From an uncultured Acidimicrobiia bacterium (GTDB lineage: Bacteria > Actinomycetota > Acidimicrobiia > Acidimicrobiales > CAIXPF01), in NCBI GenBank assembly GCA_903921205.1, contig CAIXPF010000103.1, forward strand, positions 1-36,489: a DNA stretch of 36,489 bases. Reading direction: 5' to 3'. The position numbers and the translations under genes are program-made. The notes under the pieces are model-generated. The model saw only the letters and a program-made list of their open reading frames with translations. It ran no database searches and was not told where the DNA came from. The first letter of the stretch is position 1. The number at the start of each line of letters is the position of its first letter. Below are positions 5,817 to 19,451 of this stretch, in pieces.

Positions 5817-5909
5817 CCGTCCCCGCCGGGTGTCGCGGCTCGGGCCGTGGTGCGCCGGCCGGCGGTGTCCGGTCAGATGAAGCGGCCGGCCGGCGGTGTC
5901 CGGTCAGAT
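5811..5909. terminator. Inverted repeat carrying both convergent stop codons
   Basis: ATCTGACCG (5811-5819) is the exact reverse complement of CGGTCAGAT at 5870-5878 and again at 5901-5909. The arms contain the stop codon of the plus-strand gene and of the minus-strand gene. The spacer holds further GC-rich palindromes (GCCGGCCGGC). A bidirectional terminator is a plausible role; the long spacer makes it uncertain. Confidence 0.4.
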
Positions 5910-5915
5910 GAAGCG
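5854..5915. repeat. Two tandem 31-bp copies of a gene tail
   Basis: Bases 5854-5884 are repeated at 5885-5915 without a mismatch. The unit runs from GCCGGCCGGCGG through the stop codon of the flavoenzyme into its last codons (Arg-Phe-Ile-stop). The extra copy lies just downstream of the gene, giving it a second, non-coding stop region. A recent tandem duplication is the simplest explanation. Confidence 0.9.
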
Positions 5916-7010
5916 GTCGGGCAACAGCCGCGGTTCCCAGCCATGGCCGAGGATGCCGGCGGCGACCGCCTCGCCGGACCCCGCTCCCCAGGTGATGCCC
6001 TGGCTGCCGTGCCCGACGGCGAGGACCAGGCCCGGCGTGCCCGGCACCGGGCCGTGCAACGGGAGGCCGTCGGCGGACAGCGGTCGTCGGCAGGTGCGCA
6101 GCTCGGCCACGGGCACGGCCCGTACTGCCGGCACCAGCTCGGCGGCGCGCCGGCAGACCGCCGCGACGGCCTCGGCCTGGTTCTCGGCGTGGTCGGTGCC
6201 GCTGGTCTGCAAGGACGCGCCGAGCAGCAGCCGGCCTGCGCCGTCCTGCTGGACCAGCCCGGCGATGGCCGGCGGGGTCACGGTCCCGTCCGCGTAATCG
6301 GCGACGGTCGGGGTGGTCAGACCTTTCTTGGTGGCGCTCCAGGAGGCGTCCTCGATGGCGTGGCGCAACCGGAAGGGTGCCGGTCGGGTGACCACCAGCC
6401 AGCCCCGCACGCCGCGGACGGGCACGTCGAACCCGGTGCTGCGGCACACCTGCCACGCCCACGGCCCGGCCGCGACCACGACGGTGCCTGCCGCACGCGG
6501 CCCGTCGTCGGTGAGCACTCCGGTCACCCGCTCGCCGGAACGGAGCAGCTCGCGCACCGCCACCCCGGTGCTGATGACCGCGCCGTGGGTCCGGGCCTCG
6601 GCGGCGAGGGCCGCTACTGCGGCGCCGGGGTCGATGCGTCGGGCGTCGGGTTCGAACGCGGCGCTGGTGACCGCCGGGCCGAGCAGCGGTTCGCGTTCGG
6701 CGAGTTCCTCGGGGGAGAGGCCGTCCTCGGCGCCGACCATCAGGCAGCCGTGCGGTTCACGGTCGAGGAAGAACGCGCCGTCGTTGCGATCGTGCAGGTC
6801 ACCGTAGAGCTGTACCCCTCGAGCCGCGATGGGGACCATCTCGGGCGGGTGCGGCCCGATCAGCAGCCCCTGGTTGCGGCCCGAGGCGTGCGAGGCCAGG
6901 CCGTCACGCTCGATCAGCTCGACCGTCGCCCCGGCCTCGGCGAGGAACCGAGCGGTCGCCACACCGATGATGCCGCCGCCCACCACCACCACATCGACCG
7001 TGCGCGTCAT
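5904..7010 (-). CDS. DAO-family FAD-dependent oxidoreductase
   Basis: 368 residues, typical of the D-amino-acid oxidase/glycine oxidase/sarcosine oxidase family. The N-terminal FAD-binding motif VVVGGGIIGVATARFL covers about 8-23, with the acidic ribose-binding residue in ELIERDG. The C-terminal second FAD contact GHGSQGITWGAGSGEAVA is intact. Family members oxidise C-N bonds of amino acids or amines. It is the last gene of a minus-strand cluster (LLM oxidoreductase, Mo-hydroxylase, small membrane protein, this gene), 32 bases after the small gene, and also has a TAGGCT box six bases before its ATG. The substrate is unknown. Confidence 0.9.
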   Translation of the reverse strand: MTRTVDVVVVGGGIIGVATARFLAEAGATVELIERDGLASHASGRNQGLLIGPHPPEMVPIAARGVQLYGDLHDRNDGAFFLDREPHGCLMVGAEDGLSPEELAEREPLLGPAVTSAAFEPDARRIDPGAAVAALAAEARTHGAVISTGVAVRELLRSGERVTGVLTDDGPRAAGTVVVAAGPWAWQVCRSTGFDVPVRGVRGWLVVTRPAPFRLRHAIEDASWSATKKGLTTPTVADYADGTVTPPAIAGLVQQDGAGRLLLGASLQTSGTDHAENQAEAVAAVCRRAAELVPAVRAVPVAELRTCRRPLSADGLPLHGPVPGTPGLVLAVGHGSQGITWGAGSGEAVAAGILGHGWEPRLLPDRFI

Positions 7011-7042: not shown

Positions 7043-7213
7043 TCAGCCTGCGAACGCCCACACGATGCAGCCGAGCCCTGATACCAGCAGCGCGCCGATG
7101 GTCATCGGCGCCGAGGTGCCCAGGCGCGCCTGGCCGGACCGTCGCCACAGCAGCGCTGCCGCGGCGAGCAGGACGACGCCGGCGGCCAGGACCCCCAGGT
7201 CGGACGCGGTCAT
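7043..7213 (-). CDS. Small two-helix membrane protein coupled to the Mo-hydroxylase
   Basis: A 56-residue frame begins with an ATG that overlaps the TGA of the molybdenum hydroxylase gene (ATGA). The translation has a first hydrophobic helix (LGVLAAGVVLLAAAALLW, about 6-23), a basic turn (RRSGQARLG) and a second hydrophobic helix (about 34-54) ending in Ala-Gly. Two membrane spans with a positive loop, plus stop-start coupling, support a real gene. I do not recognise a family. It could anchor or assist the hydroxylase, or be an unrelated coupled gene; that is inference. Confidence 0.65.
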   Translation of the reverse strand: MTASDLGVLAAGVVLLAAAALLWRRSGQARLGTSAPMTIGALLVSGLGCIVWAFAG

Positions 7214-9510
7214 GGCGTCACGTCGCCGGTCCGGGCCCCGGCCAGGGCGTGCCAGATCCGCTGGGGGGTCAGGGGCAGGTCGAGATGGGTGATCCCGAAC
7301 TCGGCGAGCGCGTCGAGGACGGCGTTCTGGACCGAGCTCGGTGCCGCGATGGCGCCGTTCTCGCCGACGCCCTTGGCCCCGTTCGGGGCAATCGGGGTGG
7401 GGATGCCCAACGTCAGGGTGTCGATGGCGGGAACCTCTGCCGCTGAGGGCAGGAGATAGTCCACGAACGTGGTGCTGCGCGGCGTGCCGTCGGCGTCGTA
7501 GGCGACCTCCTCGTACAGGGCCTGGCCGATGCCGGCCACGGACCCGCCGTGCTGCTGGCCGGCGACGACGGTGTGGTCGAGCACGGTGCCGCAGTCGTCG
7601 ACGGCCACGTGGCGCAGCACGCGCACCGAACCGGTTTCGAGGTCGACCTCGACCACGCTGGCATGGGCACCCGACGAGAAGGTGGCGCCGTCGAGCTCGA
7701 GATCGACCTCGGCCCGCAGCCCACCGGCGGTTCCCGCCTCGGCCGACTCGGCCAGTTCGGCCAGTTCGGGCCAGCCGACCGCGCGGGCCGGAACGCCCGC
7801 CACGGCGAGGCCACCGGGGCCGTTGGCGTCGGGGGCCACGACGACGATGTCCTCAGGGCGGGCCTCGAGCCTGGCGGCGGCAAGCAGCCGGGCGGCGTCG
7901 AGGACCGCATCGGCGGCACGGAGGGTGGCGCTGCCGGCCATCTGTGCCGAACGGGAGCCACCGGTCCCCTCACCGCGCGGTACCGCGTCGGAGTCGTTGT
8001 CGATGTACCGGATGCGTTCGATCGGAATGCCGAGCCGCTCGGCGACCGCGCCGCCGATCACCGTCGGATGGCTCTGGCCGTGGTTGGACGTACCGGCCCG
8101 TACGGTCACGGTACCGTCGCGCGCCACCTCGACCGCTCCGTACTCCGTGCCGCTCGCGGTGCAGGACACGTAGCACGCCACGCCGACGCCGACGCGTTGG
8201 GTCTGCCCGTCGCGGCGCTGCTGCTGCTGGCGGCGACGGACCTCCTCGACGCCGGCGAGCCCAGCGGCCTGTTCGAGCGCCAGCGGATAGTCGCCGCTGT
8301 CGTAGCGCAGGCCGGTCACCGTCTGATGCGGGAGCTCGGCCGCGGTCAACAGGTTGCGCCGACGCAGCTCGATCGGATCGAGGCCGAGGCGTCGGGCCGC
8401 GACGTCCATGATCCGCTCGAGGCCGTTGGTGACCTCGGGCTGGCCGGCCCCGCGATAGGCGCCGACGGGATTGGTGGTGGTGGCGTAGGCCACCCAGCTG
8501 ACGTCGACGGCCGGGATCCGGTAGGGACCGCAGGCCATCTTGCGCCCCATGAACGGCATCAGCGGGCCGAAGTGCGGGTAGGCGCCGCAATCGGCGAGGT
8601 TGCGCACCCGGAGGCCGACGATGCGGCCGTCGTCGTCGAAGCCCATGGCCACCTCGTGGCACTGGGCCCGGCCGTGGACCATCGACAGCAGGTTCTCGGT
8701 GCGGGAGGAGTCCCAGCGCAGCGCCCGGCCGAGGTGGCGGGCGGCTGCGGCGACGACGACGAACTCGATGGGGATGGCGTGGCGCCCGCCGAAGCCGCCA
8801 CCGACTGCGGCGGTCCGCACCCGGATCTGCGTCTCCGCCAGGCCGAGGGCGCCGGCGAGGTCGCGGCGAGCCATCTGGACGCCCTGGCAGGTGCACCACA
8901 CGTCGAGACGGTCGCCGTCGGGACGGACGAGGACGGCGTCGGGCTCGAGCGGGGCAGAGGCCAGTCGTTGGTTGGGGAAACGGCCTTCCACGACGACGGC
9001 CGCGGCGTCGAACAGATCGGCGCGGGGCGGCCGCTCGTAGGACAGCACCACGTTGGAACGGTGCTCGGGGAACAGCAGCGGCGCTGCGTCGTCGAGCGCG
9101 GCGTCGACTCCGACAACGGCTTCCAGGGTGTCGAGGTCGAGCTCCACCAGCTCGGCGGCGTCCACCGCATGGGCGTCGGTGTCGGCGACGACCACGGCGA
9201 GCAGCTCGCCCACGAAGCGGACCCGGTCGACGGCGAGCGGCGGGCGGGCCATCGCCTCGGGGATCTGGGCGAAGAAACGGAACGGCGCCAGGCCCAGGTC
9301 GGCCGCATCGAGTACGGCAACGACTCCTGGCGCGGAACGGGCAGCGTCGGTGTGGACGGCCCGGACGACCGCATGGGCCACCGGGCTGCGCACGAAGGCC
9401 ACGGCCAGGCAGTCGGCGGCGTCGAGGTCGCGCAGGTAGTGGGTGCTGCCCCGGAGCAGACCGGCGTCCTCGACCCGACGGAAGGTCCCTCGTCCCGGCT
9501 TGATCAGCAT
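7210..9510 (-). CDS. Xanthine dehydrogenase-family molybdopterin-binding (large) subunit, CoxL form-II-like
   Basis: 766 residues, full length for the molybdenum subunit of xanthine/aldehyde/CO-type dehydrogenases. An N-terminal a/b-hammerhead domain (FVRSPVAHA) is followed by Mo-cofactor motifs: VGGGFGGRH, AYRGAGQPE and near the end KGVGENGA, whose glutamate is the usual catalytic base. AYRGAG is the pattern of form-II CoxL-like proteins rather than genuine CO dehydrogenase (AYRCSF). The FAD (medium) and 2Fe-2S (small) subunits are not adjacent and are absent from the window. It lies 14 bases after a luciferase-like gene and overlaps the small membrane gene by four bases. Hydroxylation of an aldehyde or N-heterocycle is likely. 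Confidence 0.93.
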   Translation of the reverse strand: MLIKPGRGTFRRVEDAGLLRGSTHYLRDLDAADCLAVAFVRSPVAHAVVRAVHTDAARSAPGVVAVLDAADLGLAPFRFFAQIPEAMARPPLAVDRVRFVGELLAVVVADTDAHAVDAAELVELDLDTLEAVVGVDAALDDAAPLLFPEHRSNVVLSYERPPRADLFDAAAVVVEGRFPNQRLASAPLEPDAVLVRPDGDRLDVWCTCQGVQMARRDLAGALGLAETQIRVRTAAVGGGFGGRHAIPIEFVVVAAAARHLGRALRWDSSRTENLLSMVHGRAQCHEVAMGFDDDGRIVGLRVRNLADCGAYPHFGPLMPFMGRKMACGPYRIPAVDVSWVAYATTTNPVGAYRGAGQPEVTNGLERIMDVAARRLGLDPIELRRRNLLTAAELPHQTVTGLRYDSGDYPLALEQAAGLAGVEEVRRRQQQQRRDGQTQRVGVGVACYVSCTASGTEYGAVEVARDGTVTVRAGTSNHGQSHPTVIGGAVAERLGIPIERIRYIDNDSDAVPRGEGTGGSRSAQMAGSATLRAADAVLDAARLLAAARLEARPEDIVVVAPDANGPGGLAVAGVPARAVGWPELAELAESAEAGTAGGLRAEVDLELDGATFSSGAHASVVEVDLETGSVRVLRHVAVDDCGTVLDHTVVAGQQHGGSVAGIGQALYEEVAYDADGTPRSTTFVDYLLPSAAEVPAIDTLTLGIPTPIAPNGAKGVGENGAIAAPSSVQNAVLDALAEFGITHLDLPLTPQRIWHALAGARTGDVTP

Positions 9511-9524
9511 CGGCCCGCCCCCCG

Positions 9525-10706
9525 CTAGTTGCCGATTGCGCCGCCGAGCATGACCTCGGCCTCGCCGGTGAGGTCATGGCCCAGGGAGTGCTCGTGCAGC
9601 GGTGTCGCCATCTCGTGCACCGCCGGGAGCACTTCCTTGGCGAACAGCTCGAGGCTGGCACGGGCCTCGGGCCCGGGCTTGGAGCCGTGGGCCGGATGGA
9701 CGATGAGGTACTCGAGGCTGATGCGCTCCTGGGTCCGGCGGATCTTCTCGATGAGCTCGTCGGGGGTGCCGATCAGGTGGCCGTCCTCCGCGGCGGTGGC
9801 CTTGTCCTCGTCGAGGGTGGCCCCTTGGCGGAAGACCTTGGCGTAGTCCTCGTAGCCGGCGACGCCCTCGAAGGAGGGGGCGTTCCACACCGCATAGTGG
9901 TTGCGTGCCGCCCACGACTGCTCGCCGGCGAAGCGTCGGCCCCGCTCGATCGACTCGCGGTCGGTGGCACAGTGCAGGTACATCATGGTCGTGGGCTGGT
10001 TGGGTGCGAGCCCCATCTGTGACCGGATGGCGTTGAAGCGGGCCACGCCCTTGGCCATGACGTCGAGCGGCACGGCGGTGACGAACAGCTGGCCCAGGCC
10101 GAGCTCGGCAGCGACCTGCATCGACTGCGGGGTGTTGAACGCGCACTTCATGTTGTCGAACAGCGAGCCGCGGTGGATGGCCTGTGGTCGTACCGTCGTC
10201 TCGGGGACCTGGTAGTGCTCACCGTCGTAGGAGAACCGGTTCTGCTCCGACAGGCGGAGGATCTCGAGCATCTCCTGGAAGCGCTGACGGGATTCCTCGC
10301 GGGGCACCCCGAAGGCGTCGTACTCGTGGGCGGAGATGCCACGGCCGATGCCGAGGTGCAGCTTGCGGCCGTCGAGCAGCAGGTCGAGCATGGCGATCTC
10401 GTGGGCCAGCTTCACCGGCTGCCACCAGGGGGCGACGATGACCGCGGTGCCCATGTCGACTCGCTTGGTGCGCCCCGCCCAGAAGGCCAGCCACTGCAGC
10501 GGGTTGCCCTGCATCGAGTAGGCCGAGCCGTAGTGCTCGGCGCACCAGATGGCGTCGAAGCCGAGCGGCTCCACCATGTCGCCGAGCAGGACGGTCTGGC
10601 GGTGGATGTCGACATCGGGCGTGGCCGGGTTGTGGCCGTAGTCGCCGGCGAGCAGCCGATCCCAGTCGCGGTGGTTGTAGCTGGTCACCATGACGCCGAC
10701 CTGCAT
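9525..10706 (-). CDS. Luciferase-like (LLM) monooxygenase/F420-type oxidoreductase, long form
   Basis: 393 residues, matching the longer alkanal-monooxygenase-like group. Recognisable parts are MQVGVMVTSYNHRDW at the N-terminus, FDAIWCAEHYGS (residues about 50-62), and the GRKLHLGIGRGISAHEYDAFGVPREESRQRF region split by family motifs for flavin and substrate binding. SD sequence GGGGAG lies about seven bases before the ATG. It is the first gene of the four-gene minus-strand cluster that includes the Mo-hydroxylase. The cofactor (FMN or F420) and substrate are not determined by sequence. Confidence 0.88.
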   Translation of the reverse strand: MQVGVMVTSYNHRDWDRLLAGDYGHNPATPDVDIHRQTVLLGDMVEPLGFDAIWCAEHYGSAYSMQGNPLQWLAFWAGRTKRVDMGTAVIVAPWWQPVKLAHEIAMLDLLLDGRKLHLGIGRGISAHEYDAFGVPREESRQRFQEMLEILRLSEQNRFSYDGEHYQVPETTVRPQAIHRGSLFDNMKCAFNTPQSMQVAAELGLGQLFVTAVPLDVMAKGVARFNAIRSQMGLAPNQPTTMMYLHCATDRESIERGRRFAGEQSWAARNHYAVWNAPSFEGVAGYEDYAKVFRQGATLDEDKATAAEDGHLIGTPDELIEKIRRTQERISLEYLIVHPAHGSKPGPEARASLELFAKEVLPAVHEMATPLHEHSLGHDLTGEAEVMLGGAIGN

Positions 10707-10843: not shown

Positions 10844-12442
10844 ATGGTGCGTCGACGAGTGATTTCGGTAGCGGTGGGCCTGAGCGTGCTCGCCGCAGCA
10901 TGTGGTGGAGGAAGTGACGGCGAGAGCGCCACCGAGGACACTGCCTCGGCGGCGGTCAAGAACGAGGTGGACAAGATCGCCATCGGGGCGACCACGACCG
11001 TCGCCGGCGGCACGGCGACGACGGTGGCGGTGGCTCAGCCGAAGACCATCGAGGAGTGGGAGAAGCTCTGGGCTGCCGAGCGCAAGGCGGCCGTCGACAA
11101 GATCAAGGCCAACAAGTGGGGCCTGCAGCCGGACGGCAAGACGGTGCTGGGGCCCGATGGCTTCACCTTCGACACCAGCAAGTGCCCGGCCGGCTGGAGC
11201 AACACTGAGGGTCTGACCGACACGCAGATCAAGATCGGTAACCACACCCCGCTGTCGGGCACGCTGGCGGACGCCGGCAACATCTCGAAGTCCGCCCAGG
11301 CGATCCTGAACTACTACAACACCACCGACCTCTTCACCGACAGCAAGGGGAAGAAGCGGGCCGTCAACATGATCCTCAAGGACGACGGCTACGACCCCAC
11401 GCGGTCGATCCCCATCGTCGACGAGTTCCTCGACAGCGAGAAGGTCTTCGCCATCTGGGGGCTCGGCTCCCCGTCGGTCATGAAGACCTACGACAAGATC
11501 AATGGTCGTTGCGTCCCGCACCCCTTCGCCGTGACCGGTCATCCGGCCTGGGGCGATCCGGTGAACCATCCGTGGACCAGCGGCATTCTGCTCGCCTACA
11601 ACACCGAGGCCGTCCTGTGGGGGGCCTTCATCGATCAGCGCATCAATGAGTTGACGGCCAAGGACGGCAAGGCGACCATCGCTGCGCTGATCATGAACAA
11701 CGACTTCGGCAAGGCCTACGAGGCGGGCTTCAAATCGTATCTGGCGAAATCTCCGAACAAGGACAAGATCGAGTACGTCTCGGAGACCATCGAGCCGCAG
11801 GCGCCCACGGTGACCGACGCGATGACGAACCTGGCGGCGAAGAAGCCCGAGATGTTCATCCAGATGCTCGCCGGCACCCCATGCGCCCAGTCGATCACGG
11901 AGGCTGCGCAGAACGGCATCAAGGACACGGCGAAGTACCTGATGGCTGCATCGGTGTGCAAGAACGCCACCTACGTGGGTGAGAAGGTTGTCGGCGCCGC
12001 ATCGGACGGCTGGTGGGTGATGGGCGGGGGAATCCGCGACATGCTGTCCCCGGCTGAGGACACCAACCCCTGGATCGTGTGGGCGCGCAACATGTTGAAG
12101 AACGCCGGGTACGACTACAAGGCGTCCGGCGGCCTCGGTCAGGGCTCGGTCATCGGCTTCGGCTGGGCGCAGCTCATCGCGGTCGCCGGTCAGCTCGACG
12201 GCGGTCTGACCCGGACGAACATGCTCGTCGCCGGGCGGGCGCTCGAGATCACGCATCCCGGGTATCTCGAGGGGATCCGCTGGAACGTCAGCGGCAACAA
12301 GGACGCCTACTGGATCGAGGGCACCGAGGTCGGCAAGTGGGATGTGACCAAGCAGACCTGGGTCAAGCAGGGCGACATCATCGAGCTGTCGGGCAAGTCC
12401 TCGAACTGTGCCTGGGACGCCAGCATCGGCAACTGTAAGTGA
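10844..12442 (+). CDS. Branched-chain-amino-acid-type ABC substrate-binding lipoprotein
   Basis: 532 residues. A lipoprotein signal peptide (basic RRR, hydrophobic core, lipobox LAAAC) predicts lipid attachment at Cys20. About 100 residues of Gly/Ser/Thr-rich and then charged helical sequence (TIEEWEKLWAAERKAA) separate the lipobox from the periplasmic-binding fold, which starts near LTDTQIKIGNHTPLSGTLAD. Later segments such as ILKDDGYDPTRS and LIMNNDFGKAYEAG are typical of LivK-like (Peripla_BP_6) proteins. No permease or ATPase genes are nearby, so it is an orphan receptor. Position between catabolic genes suggests uptake of a pathway substrate. Confidence 0.92.
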   Translation: MVRRRVISVAVGLSVLAAACGGGSDGESATEDTASAAVKNEVDKIAIGATTTVAGGTATTVAVAQPKTIEEWEKLWAAERKAAVDKIKANKWGLQPDGKTVLGPDGFTFDTSKCPAGWSNTEGLTDTQIKIGNHTPLSGTLADAGNISKSAQAILNYYNTTDLFTDSKGKKRAVNMILKDDGYDPTRSIPIVDEFLDSEKVFAIWGLGSPSVMKTYDKINGRCVPHPFAVTGHPAWGDPVNHPWTSGILLAYNTEAVLWGAFIDQRINELTAKDGKATIAALIMNNDFGKAYEAGFKSYLAKSPNKDKIEYVSETIEPQAPTVTDAMTNLAAKKPEMFIQMLAGTPCAQSITEAAQNGIKDTAKYLMAASVCKNATYVGEKVVGAASDGWWVMGGGIRDMLSPAEDTNPWIVWARNMLKNAGYDYKASGGLGQGSVIGFGWAQLIAVAGQLDGGLTRTNMLVAGRALEITHPGYLEGIRWNVSGNKDAYWIEGTEVGKWDVTKQTWVKQGDIIELSGKSSNCAWDASIGNCK

Positions 12443-12481: not shown

Positions 12482-12943
12482 ATGCCTCCGGCTCCGAAGC
12501 CTTCCAGCGGCGGCCACCGATCGGTAATCCCGTGTCGTGCATGCGGCAAGAAGAACCGGGTCCCGATCGTCGCGTCGGGGACGCCTCGATGCGCGGCCTG
12601 CCACGCAGCGCTGCCCTGGTTGGTCGAGGCCACGGCAGCGGACTTCGCAGCGGCGGTACGTACCAAGGTGCCGGTGCTGGTCGACCTGTGGGCTCCGTGG
12701 TGCGGGCCGTGCCGGCAGGTGGCCCCGCTCCTCGAGCGGGCAGCGGCCGATCGGGCCGGCTCGCTCAAGGTGGTCAAGGTCAACGTGGACGTGGCACCCG
12801 ACATCTCCCGGCGTTTCGGGGTGCAGGGCATTCCCACCATGCTCGTGCTGCGTGACGGCAACGAGGTCGGCCGCCAGGTGGGTGCGCTCGGCGAGGCCGC
12901 CCTGCAGCGCTGGCTCGACACGGTTGCACCGATCCGGACCTGA
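12482..12943 (+). CDS. trxC: Thioredoxin 2-like protein with N-terminal zinc ribbon
   Basis: 153 residues. An N-terminal zinc-ribbon-like segment has two CxxC pairs (Cys18/Cys21 and Cys37/Cys40), the hallmark of TrxC, followed by a thioredoxin fold with the WCGPC active site at 73-77 and the cis-proline motif GIPT. It acts as a cytosolic disulfide reductase, in TrxC often under oxidative stress. The palindromic operator and leaderless promoter directly upstream suggest metal-, persulfide- or thiol-stress control. It follows the binding-protein gene by only 39 bases, all of which is promoter/operator. The start is fixed by the -10 spacing. Confidence 0.9.
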   Translation: MPPAPKPSSGGHRSVIPCRACGKKNRVPIVASGTPRCAACHAALPWLVEATAADFAAAVRTKVPVLVDLWAPWCGPCRQVAPLLERAAADRAGSLKVVKVNVDVAPDISRRFGVQGIPTMLVLRDGNEVGRQVGALGEAALQRWLDTVAPIRT

Positions 12944-12976: not shown

Positions 12977-13984
12977 TCAGCCGATGCGGTACGCGCGATG
13001 CGCCGAGCCGCGGAACAACTCGGCCTTCTCGGCGGCGCTGTAGCCGCCCGCGGCTGCGGTCTTCTTGAAGGCGTTCCACAGGACCACGTACGAGCAGCCC
13101 CGGCGATCGACGGGGAAGTTCGACTCGAACATGCAGCGGTCGGGGCCGAAGGCGTCGATGCAGAAGCGCATCGGCTCGCCCCAGGCGTCGACGAGGTCGT
13201 CGGAGCTCGGGGCGGTCTCGCGCTTGTGGAACTCGAGGCCGTAGAGCGACATGCCGATGCCGCCGACCTTGAGGAACACGTTCGGGCAGGCGGCGATCTC
13301 GCTCATGACCGGGCGCCACCAGGCCATGATCTCGTCGCGACGGCCGCGGTAGGGGCCGACGCCGAGCGGTCCGCCGAGGTGGTCCAACACGATCGTGGCC
13401 TCGGGGTAGGCGCGGGCCAGATCGAGCAGCTCCGGCAGCTGCGGGTGGTACAGCCACGCGTCGTAGGACAGTCCGAGCTCACCGGTGAGCACCTCGAAGC
13501 CACGCCGGAACGCCGCCGAGCCCATCTCACCCTGGGAGGGGTTCATGTGGGAGTTCTGGACCTTCGGGTCGGCATCCCACGAGGTGGCGTGGCGGATACC
13601 GGCGAACAGGCCGTTTCCCCGTTCGATCATGGCCTCGAGCACCGGCTTGACCCCGTCGCCGAGGCGCAGGTCGGCGCAACCGACGATGGAGGCGATCCGG
13701 GCCCCGGGTGTGGCGGCGGACTGCGCGGCCTGTTCGGCGGCGAAGACCACCTCGCCGACCGGTGCCATCTCGGGCGGCCCGTCGGTGAAGTAGCCGGACA
13801 TGCAGTCGACGTAGACGGTCTCGACGACGTTGTGGCCCGCACCGGTCTCGGCCTTGAGCTCCTCGACGAGGAACCGCTCCTTGGGATGATCCCACAGGTG
13901 ATGATGCGGGTCGCAGATCTCGAGGGTCGGCTCGAGAGCTTCTTCGGTGGTACTGGCCAGCCAGGCGGCGAATTCGGGGTCCAT
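12977..13984 (-). CDS. Amidohydrolase-2 family metal-dependent hydrolase
   Basis: 335 residues of the TIM-barrel amidohydrolase-2 family, which includes decarboxylases such as ACMSD and lactonases. The N-terminal metal motif ICDPHHHLWD is at about 22-31; the C-terminal catalytic segment CMFESNFPVD is also intact, and IVLDHLGGP supplies a mid-barrel histidine. It ends the minus-strand block P450-SDR-LLM-epoxide hydrolase-SDR and has its own TACGGT box seven bases before the ATG. Ring- or lactone-opening, or decarboxylation, would fit the block. It converges with trxC. Confidence 0.88.
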   Translation of the reverse strand: MDPEFAAWLASTTEEALEPTLEICDPHHHLWDHPKERFLVEELKAETGAGHNVVETVYVDCMSGYFTDGPPEMAPVGEVVFAAEQAAQSAATPGARIASIVGCADLRLGDGVKPVLEAMIERGNGLFAGIRHATSWDADPKVQNSHMNPSQGEMGSAAFRRGFEVLTGELGLSYDAWLYHPQLPELLDLARAYPEATIVLDHLGGPLGVGPYRGRRDEIMAWWRPVMSEIAACPNVFLKVGGIGMSLYGLEFHKRETAPSSDDLVDAWGEPMRFCIDAFGPDRCMFESNFPVDRRGCSYVVLWNAFKKTAAAGGYSAAEKAELFRGSAHRAYRIG

Positions 13985-13997
13985 GACGGCGACCGTA
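13985..13997 (-). promoter_or_regulatory. -10 box of a probable leaderless promoter for the amidohydrolase
   Basis: TACGGT (13997 to 13992, minus strand) is separated from the ATG at 13984 by seven bases, with no ribosome binding site. Confidence 0.5.
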
Positions 13998-14016
13998 GCG
14001 CGGCGAAACGGCCGCC

Positions 14017-14068
14017 GCGGTCTGTCGACGGGCGCGTCCGGCCGGGTCAGCCGTGGGTCGACAGACCG
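14017..14068. repeat. Duplicate copy of the SDR tail hairpin (copy A)
   Basis: This 52-bp segment matches 14106-14156 except for one extra G. It carries the same 12-bp inverted arms (14018-14029 and 14057-14068) and a copy of the SDR stop region, but here it is non-coding. Duplication of the gene tail plus hairpin is the likely origin. Confidence 0.9.
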
Positions 14069-14076
14069 GTTTGTTG

Positions 14077-14095
14077 CTGGGGGCTGCGCCCCCAG
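14077..14095. terminator. Short GC hairpin between the two repeat copies
   Basis: CTGGGGGC (14077-14084) and GCCCCCAG (14088-14095) form a perfect 8-bp stem with a three-base loop. It sits in the 37-base spacer between the duplicated hairpins, so three hairpins follow the SDR gene in a row. Confidence 0.5.
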
Positions 14096-14105
14096 ACCCC
14101 ATCGT

Positions 14106-14156
14106 GCGGTCTGTCGACGGCGCGTCCGGCCGGGTCAGCCGTGGGTCGACAGACCG
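14106..14156. terminator. Hairpin enclosing the SDR stop codon (copy B)
   Basis: Arms CGGTCTGTCGAC (14107-14118) and GTCGACAGACCG (14145-14156) are perfect 12-bp inverses. The right arm encodes the last residues Gly-Gly-Leu-Ser-Thr of the SDR, the stop (14135-14137) lies in the loop, and the left arm is 3' untranslated. Confidence 0.65.
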
Positions 14157-14917
14157 CCGTCCACCGGGATGAGGACGCCGGTGAGGAAGGCGCCGGCCCG
14201 GCTGGCCAGGAAGATGACCGTGCCGGCGACGTCCTCGGGGGTGCCGATGCGCTTGCGGGGCACCCGGCGGGCGATGCGCTCGCGGCTGTCGGGGTCGTCG
14301 AGCAGGTAGCCCATCATCTTGGAGCGGAACGGGCCGGGGGCGACGGTGTTCACGGTGATGTTGTCGCCCACCACGTTGTGGGCGAGGTGGCGGGCCAGCA
14401 TGTGGATCGCGGCCTTGGACCCCGAATACGAGAAGTTGTCGCCGATGGGCACCACCATGCCGTCGATCGAGCCGATCATGATGACCCGGGCGGGGTCCTC
14501 GGCGGTGGCGGATGCCTTCAGCTGCGGCAGCAGGGCCTGGGTCAACATGAACGGTGCCTTCACGTTGATGTTGAGCACCTTGTCGAACCCCGACGCCGGG
14601 AACTCGCCCAGCGGTGCGCCCCACGCTGCGCCGGCGTTGTTGACCAGGATGTCGAGCTTCTCCTCGCGTTCGGTGAACGCTGCGACGAACGATGCCAGAC
14701 CGTCGTCGCTGGCGAGGTCGGCGGGGATGGCGATGCACTCGCCCAGCTTGGACAGCTCGGCTGCGGCAGGTTCGAGCTCGGAAACCTTGCGCGAGGTGAT
14801 GTAGGTCTTCACCCCGTTGGACACGAGCCCTTCGGCGATCATGTAGCCGATGCCGCGGCTTCCGCCGGTGACGATGGCCGTCTTGCCCTCGATGCCGAAC
14901 AGTTCACTGATGTGCAT
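14135..14917 (-). CDS. Short-chain dehydrogenase/reductase (RhlG/FabG-like)
   Basis: 260 residues, classical SDR. The cofactor motif TGGSRGIG is at about 17-24, NNAG at about 92-95, the catalytic Ser in IGSIDG and Tyr-x3-Lys in YSGSK. An arginine after the second strand (TSRK) favours NADP(H). Sequence features resemble 3-oxoacyl reductases of the RhlG/DhrS4 type. It lies 61 bases downstream of the epoxide hydrolase on the same strand, consistent with oxidising an alcohol or diol from that reaction. Its last codons form an arm of a hairpin that is also duplicated downstream. Confidence 0.92.
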   Translation of the reverse strand: MHISELFGIEGKTAIVTGGSRGIGYMIAEGLVSNGVKTYITSRKVSELEPAAAELSKLGECIAIPADLASDDGLASFVAAFTEREEKLDILVNNAGAAWGAPLGEFPASGFDKVLNINVKAPFMLTQALLPQLKASATAEDPARVIMIGSIDGMVVPIGDNFSYSGSKAAIHMLARHLAHNVVGDNITVNTVAPGPFRSKMMGYLLDDPDSRERIARRVPRKRIGTPEDVAGTVIFLASRAGAFLTGVLIPVDGGLSTHG

Positions 14918-14978
14918 GGCTACCCCTTGGCCCGCGGGGACGGCCCCCGTCGCCGGGCACGATACCGGTCCGAAGGGT

Positions 14979-16142
14979 TCAGCGCAGGGGACCGAAGAAC
15001 GCCCGCAGTTCGTCGACCACGGCGTCGGGCCGTTCGGCCGGGCCGAAGTGGCCGCCCCGGTCGAACACCGTCCAGCGCTGCAGGTTCGTCACCTGCTCGG
15101 CCACCGAGCGGGGGATGAACATCAGTTCCTTGGGGAACACCCCGAAGCCTGTGGGCGCGTCGATGATGCGCGCCCGGTCGTGCACCGTCGGCTGCGGTTT
15201 GGAGAACTGCTCGGCGTACAGCCGGATCGACGACGCCATCGAGGTGTTGAACCAGTACAGCGAGGCCAGGGTGCACAGGTCGTCACGGCCGAACACCTCG
15301 AGCGCGTCGCCGTCGCACCACAGTTGCCGGCGGTGCCACAGCCAGGCACCGAGTCCGGCGGGGGAGTCGGCCATGGCATAGGCGAAGGTCTGGGGGTCGC
15401 GTCGGTGGACCGCGACGTGGGCCTCGGTCAGCCGACGGGCCTCGTCGGCCCGGGTCAGCATCCACTGCTCGTCGGCGGCGAATTGCTCGGGCCGTACGCC
15501 GCGCTTGCCGAGCAGGCCCGGTACCACCGGCAGGGTCAGGTAGGTGCCGATGAGGTGCTCGGCGTGGGCATGGCCCAGCCAGCCGGTGACGAACGCGCCC
15601 CAGTCGCCGCCCTGGGCGCCGAAACGGTCGTAGCCCAGCACGTCGCGCATGAGCTTGACCCACAGGCCGGCCACCGCGGCGATGTCGATGCCGGTTGTCT
15701 GCAGTGGCACCGAGAACCCGTAGCCCGGTAGCGACGGCACGATCACGTCGAAGCTGTCGGCCGGGTCGCCACCGAATCGGGCCGGGTCGGCGAGCGGTTC
15801 GGCGACCTTGCGCAGGTCCCAGAACGTCCAGGGCCAGCCGTGGGTGAGGACGAGCGGCATCGGGTCCGGGCCCTTGCCGGCCAGGCGCAGATAGTGCACC
15901 GGCACCCCGTCGATGTCGACCCGGAACTGCTCGAAGCGGTTCATCTCGGCCTCGACGCTCCGCCAGTCGTACTGCTCGGCCCAGTAGCCGACCAGATCGC
16001 CCATCCACTCACGGGTAGCGCCGTAGCGGCCGTCGGGGTTGCCGACGTCGACCGGCCAACGGGTCCGGCGCAAACGGTTGCGCAGGTCGTCGAGGTCGTC
16101 CTGGGCGATGTCGACGGTGAACGGCTGGGGTCGGCTCGGCAT
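14979..16142 (-). CDS. Epoxide hydrolase, EHN domain plus alpha/beta hydrolase
   Basis: 387 residues. The N-terminal EHN region (DLDDLRNRLRRTRWP, about 15-30, through the YDWR motif) precedes an alpha/beta-hydrolase fold. The oxyanion motif HGWPWTFWD, the nucleophile elbow QGGDWGAF with the catalytic aspartate, a lid tyrosine region and the C-terminal catalytic histidine in GGHFGPAERP are visible. It hydrates epoxides to diols, microsomal-type. In this block the upstream P450 and flavin enzyme could supply epoxides and the SDRs could oxidise the diols. A TAGCTT box lies seven bases before its ATG. Confidence 0.92.
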   Translation of the reverse strand: MPSRPQPFTVDIAQDDLDDLRNRLRRTRWPVDVGNPDGRYGATREWMGDLVGYWAEQYDWRSVEAEMNRFEQFRVDIDGVPVHYLRLAGKGPDPMPLVLTHGWPWTFWDLRKVAEPLADPARFGGDPADSFDVIVPSLPGYGFSVPLQTTGIDIAAVAGLWVKLMRDVLGYDRFGAQGGDWGAFVTGWLGHAHAEHLIGTYLTLPVVPGLLGKRGVRPEQFAADEQWMLTRADEARRLTEAHVAVHRRDPQTFAYAMADSPAGLGAWLWHRRQLWCDGDALEVFGRDDLCTLASLYWFNTSMASSIRLYAEQFSKPQPTVHDRARIIDAPTGFGVFPKELMFIPRSVAEQVTNLQRWTVFDRGGHFGPAERPDAVVDELRAFFGPLR

Positions 16143-16155
16143 GGCGGCGAAGCTA
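16143..16155 (-). promoter_or_regulatory. -10 box of a probable leaderless promoter for the epoxide hydrolase
   Basis: TAGCTT (16155 to 16150, minus strand) is followed by seven bases and the ATG at 16142. The same hexamer precedes the CoA-transferase at 4267. Confidence 0.5.
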
Positions 16156-16211
16156 GCCGCCGCACCCCGAATACCGCCCGGTAGGCGTACTGACCGGTAC
16201 GGGGCCGGCGA

Positions 16212-17153
16212 TCAGCGGTCCAGGTGGGGCAGCACCGTCTCGGCGAACAGGCGGGCCGGCCCGCGGGTGTCGCGGCCGAAGAACTCCATCATGAACATGT
16301 CGCAGCCGAGCTCGACGTGGCGGTTGATCTGCTCGATCACCCGCTCGGGCGAACCGGCGATGGCCAGGGCACCCCGAGGGTCGCCGAGATGACCGCCGAA
16401 CACCTTCTCCGCCGAGGCGATGGCGGCCTCGGCGGCGTGCTCGTCGGCACCGATGATGACCAGGCACTGCTGGGAGATCCGCACCTCGGCAGGGTCGCGA
16501 CCGATGTCGGCGAGGTGGCCCCGCAGCACCTCGATCTTGCGGGGCAGCTCTGCCTGCGCGACGGCGGAGTTGTTCCAGATGTCCGCGTGGCGGGCGGCGA
16601 GCCGCAGGGTGACCTTCTCGCCGGTACCGCCGATGAGGATCGGCGGGCGGCGAAGCGGCTTGGGGAGACACACAACATGGTCGGCGTGGACGAACTCTCC
16701 GTCGAAGCTGGCGTCGTCGGCCTCGGGGTCCCACATGGCCCGCAGCAGCGCCAGGGTCTCGTCCATCTGGCGCAGCCGGTCGAGCGGCGCCGGGAAGGCC
16801 ATGCCGAAATCGGTGTGCTCCCGGTCCATCCAGCCGGCCCCGAAGCCGGGGATGATGCGCCCGCCGGCGATGTTGTCGACGGTGGCGATGACCTTGCCGA
16901 GGTGCGCCGGGTTGCGCATGCCGGTCGGTGTGACCAGGGTTCCCAGCTCCACCCGGTCGGTCGACGCAGCCAGGGCCGACAGCAGCGACCAGGCCTCGAG
17001 GATGGGGATCGACGGCGACTGTGGGCCGTAGAGGTGGTCGCACACCCACAGCGAGTCGAAGCCCATGGCCTCGAACTCGCGGGACGCGGTGAGGCTCTCC
17101 TGCCAGGACCGCTTGATCTGCGGGACGGTGACCCCGATGTGGATTCCGGCCAT
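16212..17153 (-). CDS. Luciferase-like (LLM) F420-type oxidoreductase
   Basis: 313 residues. The N-terminal MAGIHIGVTVPQ strand, MGFDSLWVCDHLYGPQ (family D-H motif), LGTLVTPTGMRNPAHLGK and the GRIIPGFGAGWMDREH loop are those of F420-dependent LLM enzymes. SD AAGGGG lies six bases before the ATG. It follows the SDR at 17168 by 14 bases and precedes the epoxide hydrolase by 69, so it sits inside the P450-led block. Oxidation of an alcohol or a reduction or monooxygenation of an intermediate is possible; the exact reaction is not readable. Confidence 0.9.
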   Translation of the reverse strand: MAGIHIGVTVPQIKRSWQESLTASREFEAMGFDSLWVCDHLYGPQSPSIPILEAWSLLSALAASTDRVELGTLVTPTGMRNPAHLGKVIATVDNIAGGRIIPGFGAGWMDREHTDFGMAFPAPLDRLRQMDETLALLRAMWDPEADDASFDGEFVHADHVVCLPKPLRRPPILIGGTGEKVTLRLAARHADIWNNSAVAQAELPRKIEVLRGHLADIGRDPAEVRISQQCLVIIGADEHAAEAAIASAEKVFGGHLGDPRGALAIAGSPERVIEQINRHVELGCDMFMMEFFGRDTRGPARLFAETVLPHLDR

Positions 17154-17167
17154 GGTGTGCCCCTTGC

Positions 17168-17935
17168 TCAGTGGTTGCTCATCCCGCCGTCGGCGGCGAC
17201 TGCGGTGCCGTTGATCATGCGCGACTCGTCCGACGCCAGGAACAGCGCGATGGCGGCGATGTCCTCCGGCCGGCCGACGCTGTAGGGCCAGCGCCGGGTG
17301 CTCTCGTCGAGGGCGCCCGGCCGGCCGTCGGTGCCGTCACCGAGGCGGCTGACCACCCGTTCGGTCAGCACGTAGCCCGGGCAGATGGCATTGACCCGTA
17401 CGCCCTGGCGGCCGTACTGGTAGGCCATGGTCCGGGTGAGGGCGATGACGCCACCCTTGGCGGCGGAGTAGATGTGCATGCGCATCGGCCGCAGCGCAGC
17501 CATCGACGCCATGTTCACCACCGTGCCACCGCCGGCCTCGATGATGCGGGGGATACCGAGCCGGCAGCACAGCACCGTGCCCTTGAGGTCGAGGTTGATG
17601 GTGTGGTCCCACACGTCGAGGTCGACTTCGGTGACCGGCGCATCCTGCGGGATCGATCCACCGGCGCAGTTGTACAGCACGTCGAGCTTGCCGAAACGCT
17701 CGACGGTGGCCGCCATGGCTGCGGCGATCTGGGTCTCGTCGGTGACGTCGGTTCGCACGAACAGGGCGTCACCGCCATCGTCGCGAACCAGCGCCTCGGT
17801 CTGCGAGCCGTTGACCGGGTCGATCTCGGCGACCACGACCTTGGCGCCCTCGGCAGCGAAGAGCCGGGCCGCGGCCCGTCCGATCCCGAGACCGGCCCCG
17901 GTGATGAAGGCCACGCGTCCGTCGAGTCGTCCCAT
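17168..17935 (-). CDS. Short-chain dehydrogenase/reductase
   Basis: 255 residues. TGAGLGIG at about 14-21, an acidic residue after the second strand (VAEID, favouring NAD), NCAGG in place of NNAG, the catalytic serine in MASMAAL and Tyr-x3-Lys in YSAAK are all present. C-terminal GTAVAADGGMS is the classical SDR ending. The start at MGRLDGRVAF is preferred over an upstream arginine-rich extension because SDRs begin just before the first strand. It is the second gene of the P450-led block and is likely co-transcribed with the luciferase-like gene 14 bases downstream. Confidence 0.92.
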   Translation of the reverse strand: MGRLDGRVAFITGAGLGIGRAAARLFAAEGAKVVVAEIDPVNGSQTEALVRDDGGDALFVRTDVTDETQIAAAMAATVERFGKLDVLYNCAGGSIPQDAPVTEVDLDVWDHTINLDLKGTVLCCRLGIPRIIEAGGGTVVNMASMAALRPMRMHIYSAAKGGVIALTRTMAYQYGRQGVRVNAICPGYVLTERVVSRLGDGTDGRPGALDESTRRWPYSVGRPEDIAAIALFLASDESRMINGTAVAADGGMSNH

Positions 17936-17950
17936 GACGCGCCGACCGTA
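17936..17950 (-). promoter_or_regulatory. -10 box close to the SDR start
   Basis: TACGGT (17950 to 17945, minus strand) lies nine bases before the ATG at 17935, leaving at most a very short 5' leader. The rest of the 17936-18040 interval shows only GC-rich sequence. Confidence 0.4.
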
Positions 17951-18040
17951 GCAGAGGCCCCTGCGCCGCCGACGCCCGTACCGGGCCGAACGTCGAATCA
18001 TCGGCGTCGACCCGGCGGGGACGACTCGGTGGCCGTCGAC

Positions 18041-19219
18041 TCAGCGGGCGACGACCGGCAGTTTCGTGAGGCCGACCAGCCGGTTGTTGTTGGTCCAGCG
18101 CGGCTCGCCGGCGAGCTCGAAGCGCTCGAACCGCTCGAACAGTTCCTCGAACATCACCTTCATCTCGAGCCGGGCCAGGCTCGCCCCGAGGCAGAAATGG
18201 GTGCCCAGACCGAAGCCGACATGCGGGTTCGGGTCACGGGTCACGTCGAAGCGGAACGGCTCGTCGAACACATGCTCGTCGCGGTTGGCCGACATCTCCC
18301 ACAGGGTGACCCGCTGGCCCTCGCGGATCTCGGCGTTGCCGAGTTGCACGTCCCGGGTGGCGGTGCGCCGCTTGTAGACCGACGGCGAGGTCCAGCGCAC
18401 GATTTCCTCGATGGCCACCTTGAGCCGGTCGGGTTCCTCACGCAGGAGGCGGTACTGGTCGGGTTCGGCGACGAACTGCAACACCGCACCGCCGATGGCG
18501 CTACGGGTCGTCTCCGCCCCGGCGGGGAACAGCAGGTTGAAGAAGGCCCGCAGCTCACGGTCGTCGAGGCGTGAGCCGTCCTCGAGGCTGGCGTGCACGA
18601 TCACCGACAGGATGTCGTCGGAGGGGTTCTGACGCTTCTCGGCGAGGAGCTTGCGTGCATAGGCGCTCAGCTGGCGGACGTACTCCATGGCGATGACCTC
18701 GCCGGTCTCGCCGGCCACGCCGCGGTCCACGATCTCGACCAGCTCGGCCCGGTCCTCCTGGGGGACCCCGAGCACGCTGCAGATGGCCTGCAACGGCAGT
18801 TCGCGGGCCACGTCGGTGAGGAAGTCGAAGGGTTCACCGACGGTCACCCCGTCGAGGATCTGGCGGGCCCGGATGCGCAGGTCGTCCTCGAGCCTGCCGA
18901 TCATCCGTGGGGTGAAACCCTTGTTGACCAACGCCCGCAGGGTCCGGTGCTGTGGATCGTCGGTCTGGTTCAGCACGATGCCGGCGGCGTTGCTGTCGGC
19001 CAACGCGGTGCCGGCCACCGCCGAGGAGAACGTGGCACCGTCCTTGAACATCGCCACCACGTCGGCGTAGCGGCTGACCACCCAGAACCCCTCGCCCTCG
19101 GGGGTGTGCTCGGTGGGTTCGTGCCACCACACCGGCTCGTCGGCCCGCAGCCAGGTGAAGAACTCGTGCGGGAAGCCGTTGCCGAAGGTGCGCCCGTAGG
19201 ACAGGTCGATCGGTTCCAT
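18041..19219 (-). CDS. Cytochrome P450
   Basis: 392 residues, the usual size for soluble bacterial P450s. The I-helix oxygen-activation motif AGAETT is near residue 240, the ExxR motif is EEIVR, and the haem loop FGLGTHFCLG places the thiolate ligand at Cys343. The N-terminal FGNGFPHEFFTWLRADEPV style resembles actinobacterial lipid/sterol or terpene P450s such as CYP125/CYP142-like enzymes, a loose comparison only. The start at MEPIDLSYG is chosen because GGGAG lies about seven bases upstream; the longer frame adds an unrelated Arg/Pro-rich stretch. No ferredoxin or reductase gene is adjacent. It heads the minus-strand block. Confidence 0.95.
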   Translation of the reverse strand: MEPIDLSYGRTFGNGFPHEFFTWLRADEPVWWHEPTEHTPEGEGFWVVSRYADVVAMFKDGATFSSAVAGTALADSNAAGIVLNQTDDPQHRTLRALVNKGFTPRMIGRLEDDLRIRARQILDGVTVGEPFDFLTDVARELPLQAICSVLGVPQEDRAELVEIVDRGVAGETGEVIAMEYVRQLSAYARKLLAEKRQNPSDDILSVIVHASLEDGSRLDDRELRAFFNLLFPAGAETTRSAIGGAVLQFVAEPDQYRLLREEPDRLKVAIEEIVRWTSPSVYKRRTATRDVQLGNAEIREGQRVTLWEMSANRDEHVFDEPFRFDVTRDPNPHVGFGLGTHFCLGASLARLEMKVMFEELFERFERFELAGEPRWTNNNRLVGLTKLPVVAR

Positions 19220-19451
19220 CGCAGGGCTCCCGGATGTTCGTGCTCGCGCCGGCACCGGCGGCCGGCCGCTGCAGGACGGTAGCACCGGCACGATGGGGAC
19301 CCGCCGCTGTGGTCGCGGTCGGGGCTACCGGGAAGGTCGGGACGCATCCGGCTCGGTCGGATCGGGCCGGAAGGCCCTACCGCCCTTCGGCGGCGGTGGG
19401 CAGGATTGCCGCCAACAACGCCTCGGGGCAGGCGCGTGGGCAGGTGAAGGC

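Follow-up and report, generated by a model that had tools for sequence, protein, structure and literature searches.

In the xanthine oxidase family, 2Fe-2S and FAD subunits carry electrons off the molybdenum, and no turnover is expected of a large subunit on its own. The locus described here contains a gene for such a large subunit with neither partner beside it, which raises the question of where the missing subunits of the enzyme are encoded. The analysed stretch of DNA (the window; 36.5 kb) is the entire contig C103 of the source genome (G000; 4.36 Mb in 208 contigs). A preliminary description had proposed that a small membrane protein encoded next to the large subunit could anchor the hydroxylase in the membrane or conduct electrons there, and had named, as a fallback, a location of the other subunits elsewhere. 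The reading preferred here, with a probability of about 0.68, is that dispersed, form-II-like solo large subunits, the window gene being one of them, share a single unlinked hub for electron transfer and maturation.

Gene content of the window

Four open reading frames of the minus strand, already noted in the preliminary description, are all present. The first encodes a luciferase-like (LLM) monooxygenase/oxidoreductase of 393 aa (9525-10706; Pfam PF00296, Bac_luciferase). It is followed by the gene of the solo CoxL-type large (molybdopterin-binding, catalytic) subunit of 766 aa (7210-9510), in which the MoCoBD_1, MoCoBD_2 and Ald_Xan_dh_C domains (PF02738, PF20256 and PF01315) all score above the Pfam cut-off. 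The other two encode a two-helix membrane protein of 56 aa (7043-7213), kept in genomes G001 and G003, and a DAO-type FAD oxidoreductase of 368 aa (5904-7010; PF01266). The start of the small frame overlaps the stop of the large subunit in an ATGA (7213/7210, minus strand), as described earlier. On the plus strand, a Peripla_BP_6 substrate-binding protein (10844-12442; PF13458) and a thioredoxin (12482-12943; PF00085) are encoded.

The absence of nearby FAD and 2Fe-2S genes was borne out: the corresponding family models (PF00941 and PF01799) had no match on contig C103, and tblastn with five queries, three of the FAD type and two of the 2Fe-2S type, gave none either. A complete locus of the xanthine oxidase family was thus not found in the window, and the 2Fe-2S/FAD pairs of this genome lie on other contigs.

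Family assignment of the large subunit

The best PDB relatives of the large subunit are the large chains of 8uem (CoxL), 1t3q (quinoline 2-oxidoreductase) and 7dqx, with a near full-length match. The C-terminal GxGE glutamate is catalytic in the xanthine oxidase family, and the stretch GVGENG at residues 714-719 (glutamate E717) aligns with GIGES/GMGES of 8uem and 1t3q. The active-site stretch, AYRGAGQ (residues 351-357), is form-II-like and differs from the form II motif AYRGAGR in its last residue; it stands in the place of the form I motif AYXCSFR, which was not found in the protein. Scores against the CO dehydrogenase equivalog models reached 393 of the 991 bits needed (TIGR02416) and 470 of 950 (NF040766). 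With both the form I motif and these cut-offs missed, a CO dehydrogenase function was rejected, and CO is not supported as the substrate. The model of the glyceraldehyde dehydrogenase alpha subunit (NF041018) gave 530.8 bits, below its cut-off of 790. Structure prediction for the large subunit, based on two sequences, reached a pLDDT of only 30.

Subunit inventory of the source genome

Eight CoxL-type large subunits are encoded in G000 (contigs C103, C106, C140, C1, C32, C20, C98 and C19), together with three FAD subunits (C51, C94 and C20). Large, FAD and 2Fe-2S subunits are found together only on C20, while the FAD/2Fe-2S pairs of C51 and C94 lack a large subunit. The solo state of the C140 gene is uncertain in G000 because its contig is only 4.6 kb long; the gene that seems to correspond to it in G001 (C16:54722-57013; judged from similar match scores, not from a direct comparison) lies inside a long contig. 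An additional MoCoBD match, below cut-off, is present on C34. On C13 (L068:6092-10140), a 2Fe-2S gene is followed by a long ninth MoCoBD protein, an apparent two-subunit type with no FAD match on the contig.

The C51 cluster, hereafter the hub, has the order S-M-AAA-VWA_CoxE-XdhC-XdhC-ACAD-MobA-CoxG and contains no large subunit. By Pfam, its genes encode a 2Fe-2S protein (S; L057:9969-10436), a FAD_binding_5 and CO_deh_flav_C protein (M; L057:9151-9969), an AAA ATPase, a VWA_CoxE protein, two XdhC-type proteins, an acyl-CoA dehydrogenase and a MobA-like protein; CoxG was identified on the hub copy of G004, and its match lies at the corresponding place in G000. The acyl-CoA dehydrogenase (L057:985-2238) is located between XdhC and MobA in G000, G001, G003 and G004, and had no match in the other hub loci compared. 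In G000 it is preceded by a gene block that, by eye, includes receptor-like and roadblock-like ORFs.

On C94 (L058:8169-10356), a gene for a Rce1-like CAAX protease stands between those of the FAD and 2Fe-2S subunits. Similar pairs, variably spaced, were also seen in G001, G002 and G003. None of the hub maturation genes was matched within 18 kb around C94.

These findings support the fallback of the preliminary description, since the genome does contain FAD/2Fe-2S pairs without a large subunit, one of them in a maturation cluster. The description had also named a complete CoxMS pair always encoded with this large subunit as a finding that would speak against its proposal, and no such pair is encoded with it.

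The best NCBIfam models for the window large subunit, hub M and hub S are the alpha, beta and gamma subunits of one enzyme (NF041018-20), all with scores below cut-off (531/790, 276/350 and 242/290, respectively). This agreement is consistent with an assembly of the window protein with the hub subunits.

Large subunits and hubs across the order

The window large subunit is matched (E 1e-30 or better) in 291 of the 397 genomes of the order, and the hub FAD subunit (E 1e-8 or better) in 288 of these 291 and in none of the remaining 106. Some of this co-occurrence is to be expected in a family whose enzymes are usually built of three subunits. The three genomes with a large subunit and no detectable FAD subunit, for which the FAD family model also finds none, are G219 (81% complete), G225 (93%) and G308 (93%); they may reflect gaps in the MAGs or an independence from the FAD subunit. 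Among 59 relatives, 39 had a large-subunit match and 39 a FAD subunit, and by inspection these are the same genomes.

Co-occurrence in a genome is frequently not accompanied by linkage. Among the matches listed, 95 of 149 large subunits have no FAD subunit within 5 kb, contig ends included (two fragments of one G005 gene were merged in this set, and 113 of the 115 listed FAD matches were used, two weak ones being dropped). Four single-contig genomes (G320, G177, G092 and G011) were chosen to exclude contig-end effects. These contain 31 large subunits, and for 20 of them the nearest FAD subunit is over 25 kb away; five weaker MoCoBD rows (at most 62 bits, two of them over cut-off) and two FAD rows below cut-off are left out of this count. 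In each of the four genomes, a distance of over 74 kb separates the hub FAD gene from the nearest large subunit. The plainest case is G004, with four CoxL-type large subunits, all of them unlinked, against a single FAD subunit and a single hub 2Fe-2S subunit; a further Fer2_2 match there shares another 533-residue frame with a weak MoCoBD match, and a second FAD match is below cut-off. The strongest imbalance seen is that of G017, with 14 MoCoBD_1 matches over cut-off (15 in all) and two FAD subunits.

A hub without a large subunit is a common, though not universal, state. From 30 loci, 24 were taken as hub-type, leaving out four of the C94 type and two of G005 (one on a 3.3-kb contig, one with distant S and M). 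Some of the 24 stretches examined end at contig ends. No large subunit was found in the stretch at 13 of the 24; five of the 13 are in single-contig genomes (G011, G320, G177, G243 and G092). The other 11 have a large subunit in the stretch, in three cases between S and M. Not every accessory gene was seen at each of the 24 loci, and L112 and L124 show S and M only.

Lineage of the large subunit

When 70 large subunits were placed in a quick tree, the window protein fell into a clade of 40 rows with an SH-aLRT of 90, below the mark of 95. No FAD or 2Fe-2S match was found in the flanking DNA of any of the 40, the flanks being mostly at least 1.5 kb on each side and shorter at some contig ends. 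Some tree labels have to be read with care: L030 is called solo and adjoins an S gene, and L036, L112, L113, L115 and L124 are labelled solo despite a hub within 10 kb; the 40-row clade includes none of these six.

Two members of the neighbouring clade are arranged differently. In G033, a large subunit with 46% identity to that of the window has the genes of hub-type S (72%) and M (76%) immediately after it, and in G043 a large subunit lies beside S (79% identity to that of the hub). Hub-type S and M are thus physically found with relatives of the solo subunits.

The small protein and its neighbours

The 56-residue protein had no Pfam family at cut-off, in agreement with its earlier description as unrecognised. 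AlphaFold2 predicted two helices (residues 3-31 and 36-55) with a mean pLDDT of 76. Its counterpart in G001 has the same length, start and stop, no gaps and 77% amino acid identity, and dN/dS between the two is about 0.3 (NG86) or 0.2 (YN00). Only 13 codons differ in the encoded amino acid, compared to a mean of 20.9 under random placement of the same 34 substitutions (P 0.00035; P 0.0001 when the permutation test is combined with the intact frame). A third copy, with 64% identity, was found in G003. Clear matches are limited to these three of the 397 genomes of the order; the next best had an E of 6.4e-4, and this and weaker matches were treated as noise. Judged from the sequences, the small frame is real and conserved more than chance would allow. 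The preliminary description had made its proposal depend on such conservation, and the frame is indeed conserved in G001 and G003.

Its conservation follows other genes than the large subunit. The luciferase-like protein (9525-10706) is 98% identical in G001 and 93% in G003, and the DAO-type protein 94% and 85%, respectively. In G003, which belongs to the same genus, the syntenic block reads ADH, ECH, CoA-transferase, DUF4126, MDMPI, DAO, small protein, luciferase, amidohydrolase, SDR and epoxide hydrolase. Missing from it are the large subunit, the Peripla_BP_6 substrate-binding protein and the thioredoxin. Only 91 bp separate the luciferase and the small gene there, and no remnant of the large subunit was found in this junction, its likeness to the large-subunit ends being no greater than that of shuffled sequence (P 0.68 and 0.55).

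After G001, the large subunit has its closest orthologues in G005 (67%) and G355 (61%). The G005 gene (L040:8013-10312) is split over two overlapping frames, perhaps through misassembly, perhaps because the gene is broken. Within about 19 kb around both orthologues, tblastn gave no match to the small protein, the 9525-10706 luciferase or the DAO-type protein; weak matches (24 and 32%) to the second luciferase-like gene of the window lie 7.8 and 3.7 kb away. In sum, the small protein accompanies this luciferase in three of three genomes, and the large subunit in two of the four genomes having its orthologue. A luciferase relative with 53% identity in G051 has no small gene beside it. By gene order, the 56-residue protein appears to belong with the luciferase-like/DAO neighbourhood, and to adjoin the large subunit by position only.

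The order luciferase, large subunit, small protein and DAO was looked for elsewhere, as the preliminary description had recommended, and among the genomes searched only G001 shares it with G000; it was therefore rejected as a conserved unit. A large-subunit scan of an 84,980-species collection, sensitive to close relatives only, returned a single locus, the record of G001 itself (87-88% match).

A probable shared hub and the alternatives to it

From the gene content and positions, the conservation, the synteny, the hub without a large subunit and the lack of local partners, we infer that the window large subunit assembles with hub subunits, shares them and uses their electron path. It would hold the molybdenum cofactor and the substrate pocket, and its CoxS-type 2Fe-2S and CoxM-type FAD subunits would come from the unlinked C51 cluster. 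Maturation would be carried out by the hub AAA ATPase (CoxD-like), the VWA protein (CoxE-like), the two XdhC-type proteins, the MobA-type nucleotidyltransferase and CoxG. Electrons would pass from molybdenum to 2Fe-2S, FAD and an acceptor, the route of the known three-subunit enzymes. One hub would supply several solo large subunits that differ in specificity. A wider generalization has about even odds: in Acidimicrobiia, one operon with a common 2Fe-2S/FAD pair and maturation genes may receive several (in some genomes about 10) unlinked catalytic subunits, substrate range being added by acquisition of single genes.

The C94 pair might serve the window protein instead of the hub, or the two pairs might serve different solo subunits. 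The pair likewise has no large subunit and recurs in G001 and G003, but it has no hub maturation genes matched within 18 kb, G004 has solo large subunits without any C94-type pair, and in G033 it is hub-type S and M that a related large subunit adjoins; this reading is considered unlikely. Even less is to be said for a solo subunit that works without 2Fe-2S and FAD subunits, either by giving electrons to neighbouring flavoenzymes or in a non-redox role. Flavoenzymes do adjoin the gene in G000 and G001, and three genomes have a large subunit with no detectable FAD subunit. However, such neighbours were not seen again near the orthologues or the other solo subunits examined, the large and FAD subunits co-occur in 288 of 291 genomes, and the closest proteins of known structure are the large chains of multi-subunit enzymes, which makes this reading highly improbable.

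The same holds, if anything more strongly, for the 56-residue protein as a dedicated partner, whether as anchor of the hydroxylase or as carrier of its electrons to the membrane. The ATGA overlap in G000 and G001 suggests translational coupling and the small frame is under purifying selection, but G003 keeps the protein with the luciferase and DAO genes and no large subunit there, no match lies near the G005 and G355 orthologues, and clear matches are confined to three of 397 genomes. Moreover, the protein has one cysteine and no histidine, so there is no obvious metal site. The tethering or electron transfer proposed in the preliminary description is accordingly not supported, and such a function was rejected as a conserved role of the protein because G003 retains it without the large subunit.

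Relation to known systems

The shared-hub arrangement resembles several known systems in part. The large, FAD and 2Fe-2S chains of aerobic CO dehydrogenase CoxMSL (PDB 1n5w, 1ffu and 8uem) are sequence relatives of the subunits considered here, and the hub contains CoxE-type, CoxG-type and AAA accessory genes; in contrast to CoxL, the window protein lacks the form I motif AYXCSFR, is far below the CO dehydrogenase equivalog cut-offs and has no linked M and S. The glyceraldehyde dehydrogenase/oxidoreductase alpha-beta-gamma models (NF041018-20), whose enzyme we take to be that of PDB 4zoh, are the best for the window large subunit, hub M and hub S, but all three scores are below cut-off and the subunits are unlinked here. 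In Rieske oxygenase or P450 systems, several catalytic components share one ferredoxin/reductase set encoded elsewhere. The dependence of several catalytic components on common redox partners encoded elsewhere is similar, whereas the enzyme family is another one, and separate electron carriers take the place of complex subunits.

A likeness in gene order is seen with form II cox operons, for which PMC13203968 gives the order coxSLM and calls the role unclear. The window motif AYRGAGQ resembles AYRGAGR of form II, and the hub loci of G018, G136 and G037 have the order S-L-M, as in coxSLM (PMC13203968). Here, on the other hand, the large subunit lies outside the operon, the operon exists without it (S-M in the G000 hub), and the large subunits are dispersed and in several copies.

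In the part of the PMC literature that was searched, mainly at the level of titles and abstracts, no description was found of coxL-less cox clusters that serve unlinked large subunits. The components are each known, and the arrangement may be new. If the shared hub is real, annotation that seeks coxL beside coxM and coxS misses or misnames many such enzymes, and counts of CO oxidisers from coxL homology alone would be inflated by solo subunits. Some form II cox loci would then be reductase hubs rather than CO dehydrogenases, and the question of the form II cox role would become testable. The syntenic block has the window gene in some genomes and lacks it in another, which also suggests that the catalytic repertoire can grow by the gain of a single gene.

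Surroundings of the large subunit

The neighbourhood of the window gene, which includes luciferases, an epoxide hydrolase, a P450, SDRs, a CoA-transferase and an amidohydrolase, looks catabolic, yet it is not specific to the large subunit because much of it is also present in G003, where the block lacks that gene. The stretch 12977-19291, with an amidohydrolase, an SDR, an epoxide hydrolase, a second luciferase-like protein, a further SDR and a P450, is one catabolic-looking part of it. Protein identities in G001 are 93-98% (the P450 compared only in part), and the amidohydrolase, SDR and epoxide hydrolase are also present in G003 (88-92%).

As a clue to the substrate, the surroundings of 21 solo-subunit loci were searched with the window proteins (tblastn), and no partner common to them was found. 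The matches were to luciferase-like proteins at 4 loci, DAO at 0, the substrate-binding protein at 1, CoA-transferase III-like proteins at 9 and SDR-like proteins at 7. The Peripla_BP_6 protein (10844-12442), which may bind the substrate of the hydroxylase, is encoded close to the large-subunit gene of both G000 and G001; no match to it was found around the G355 orthologue. In G005, a relative of it with 49% identity (L040:10475-12067) is encoded directly upstream of the large subunit.
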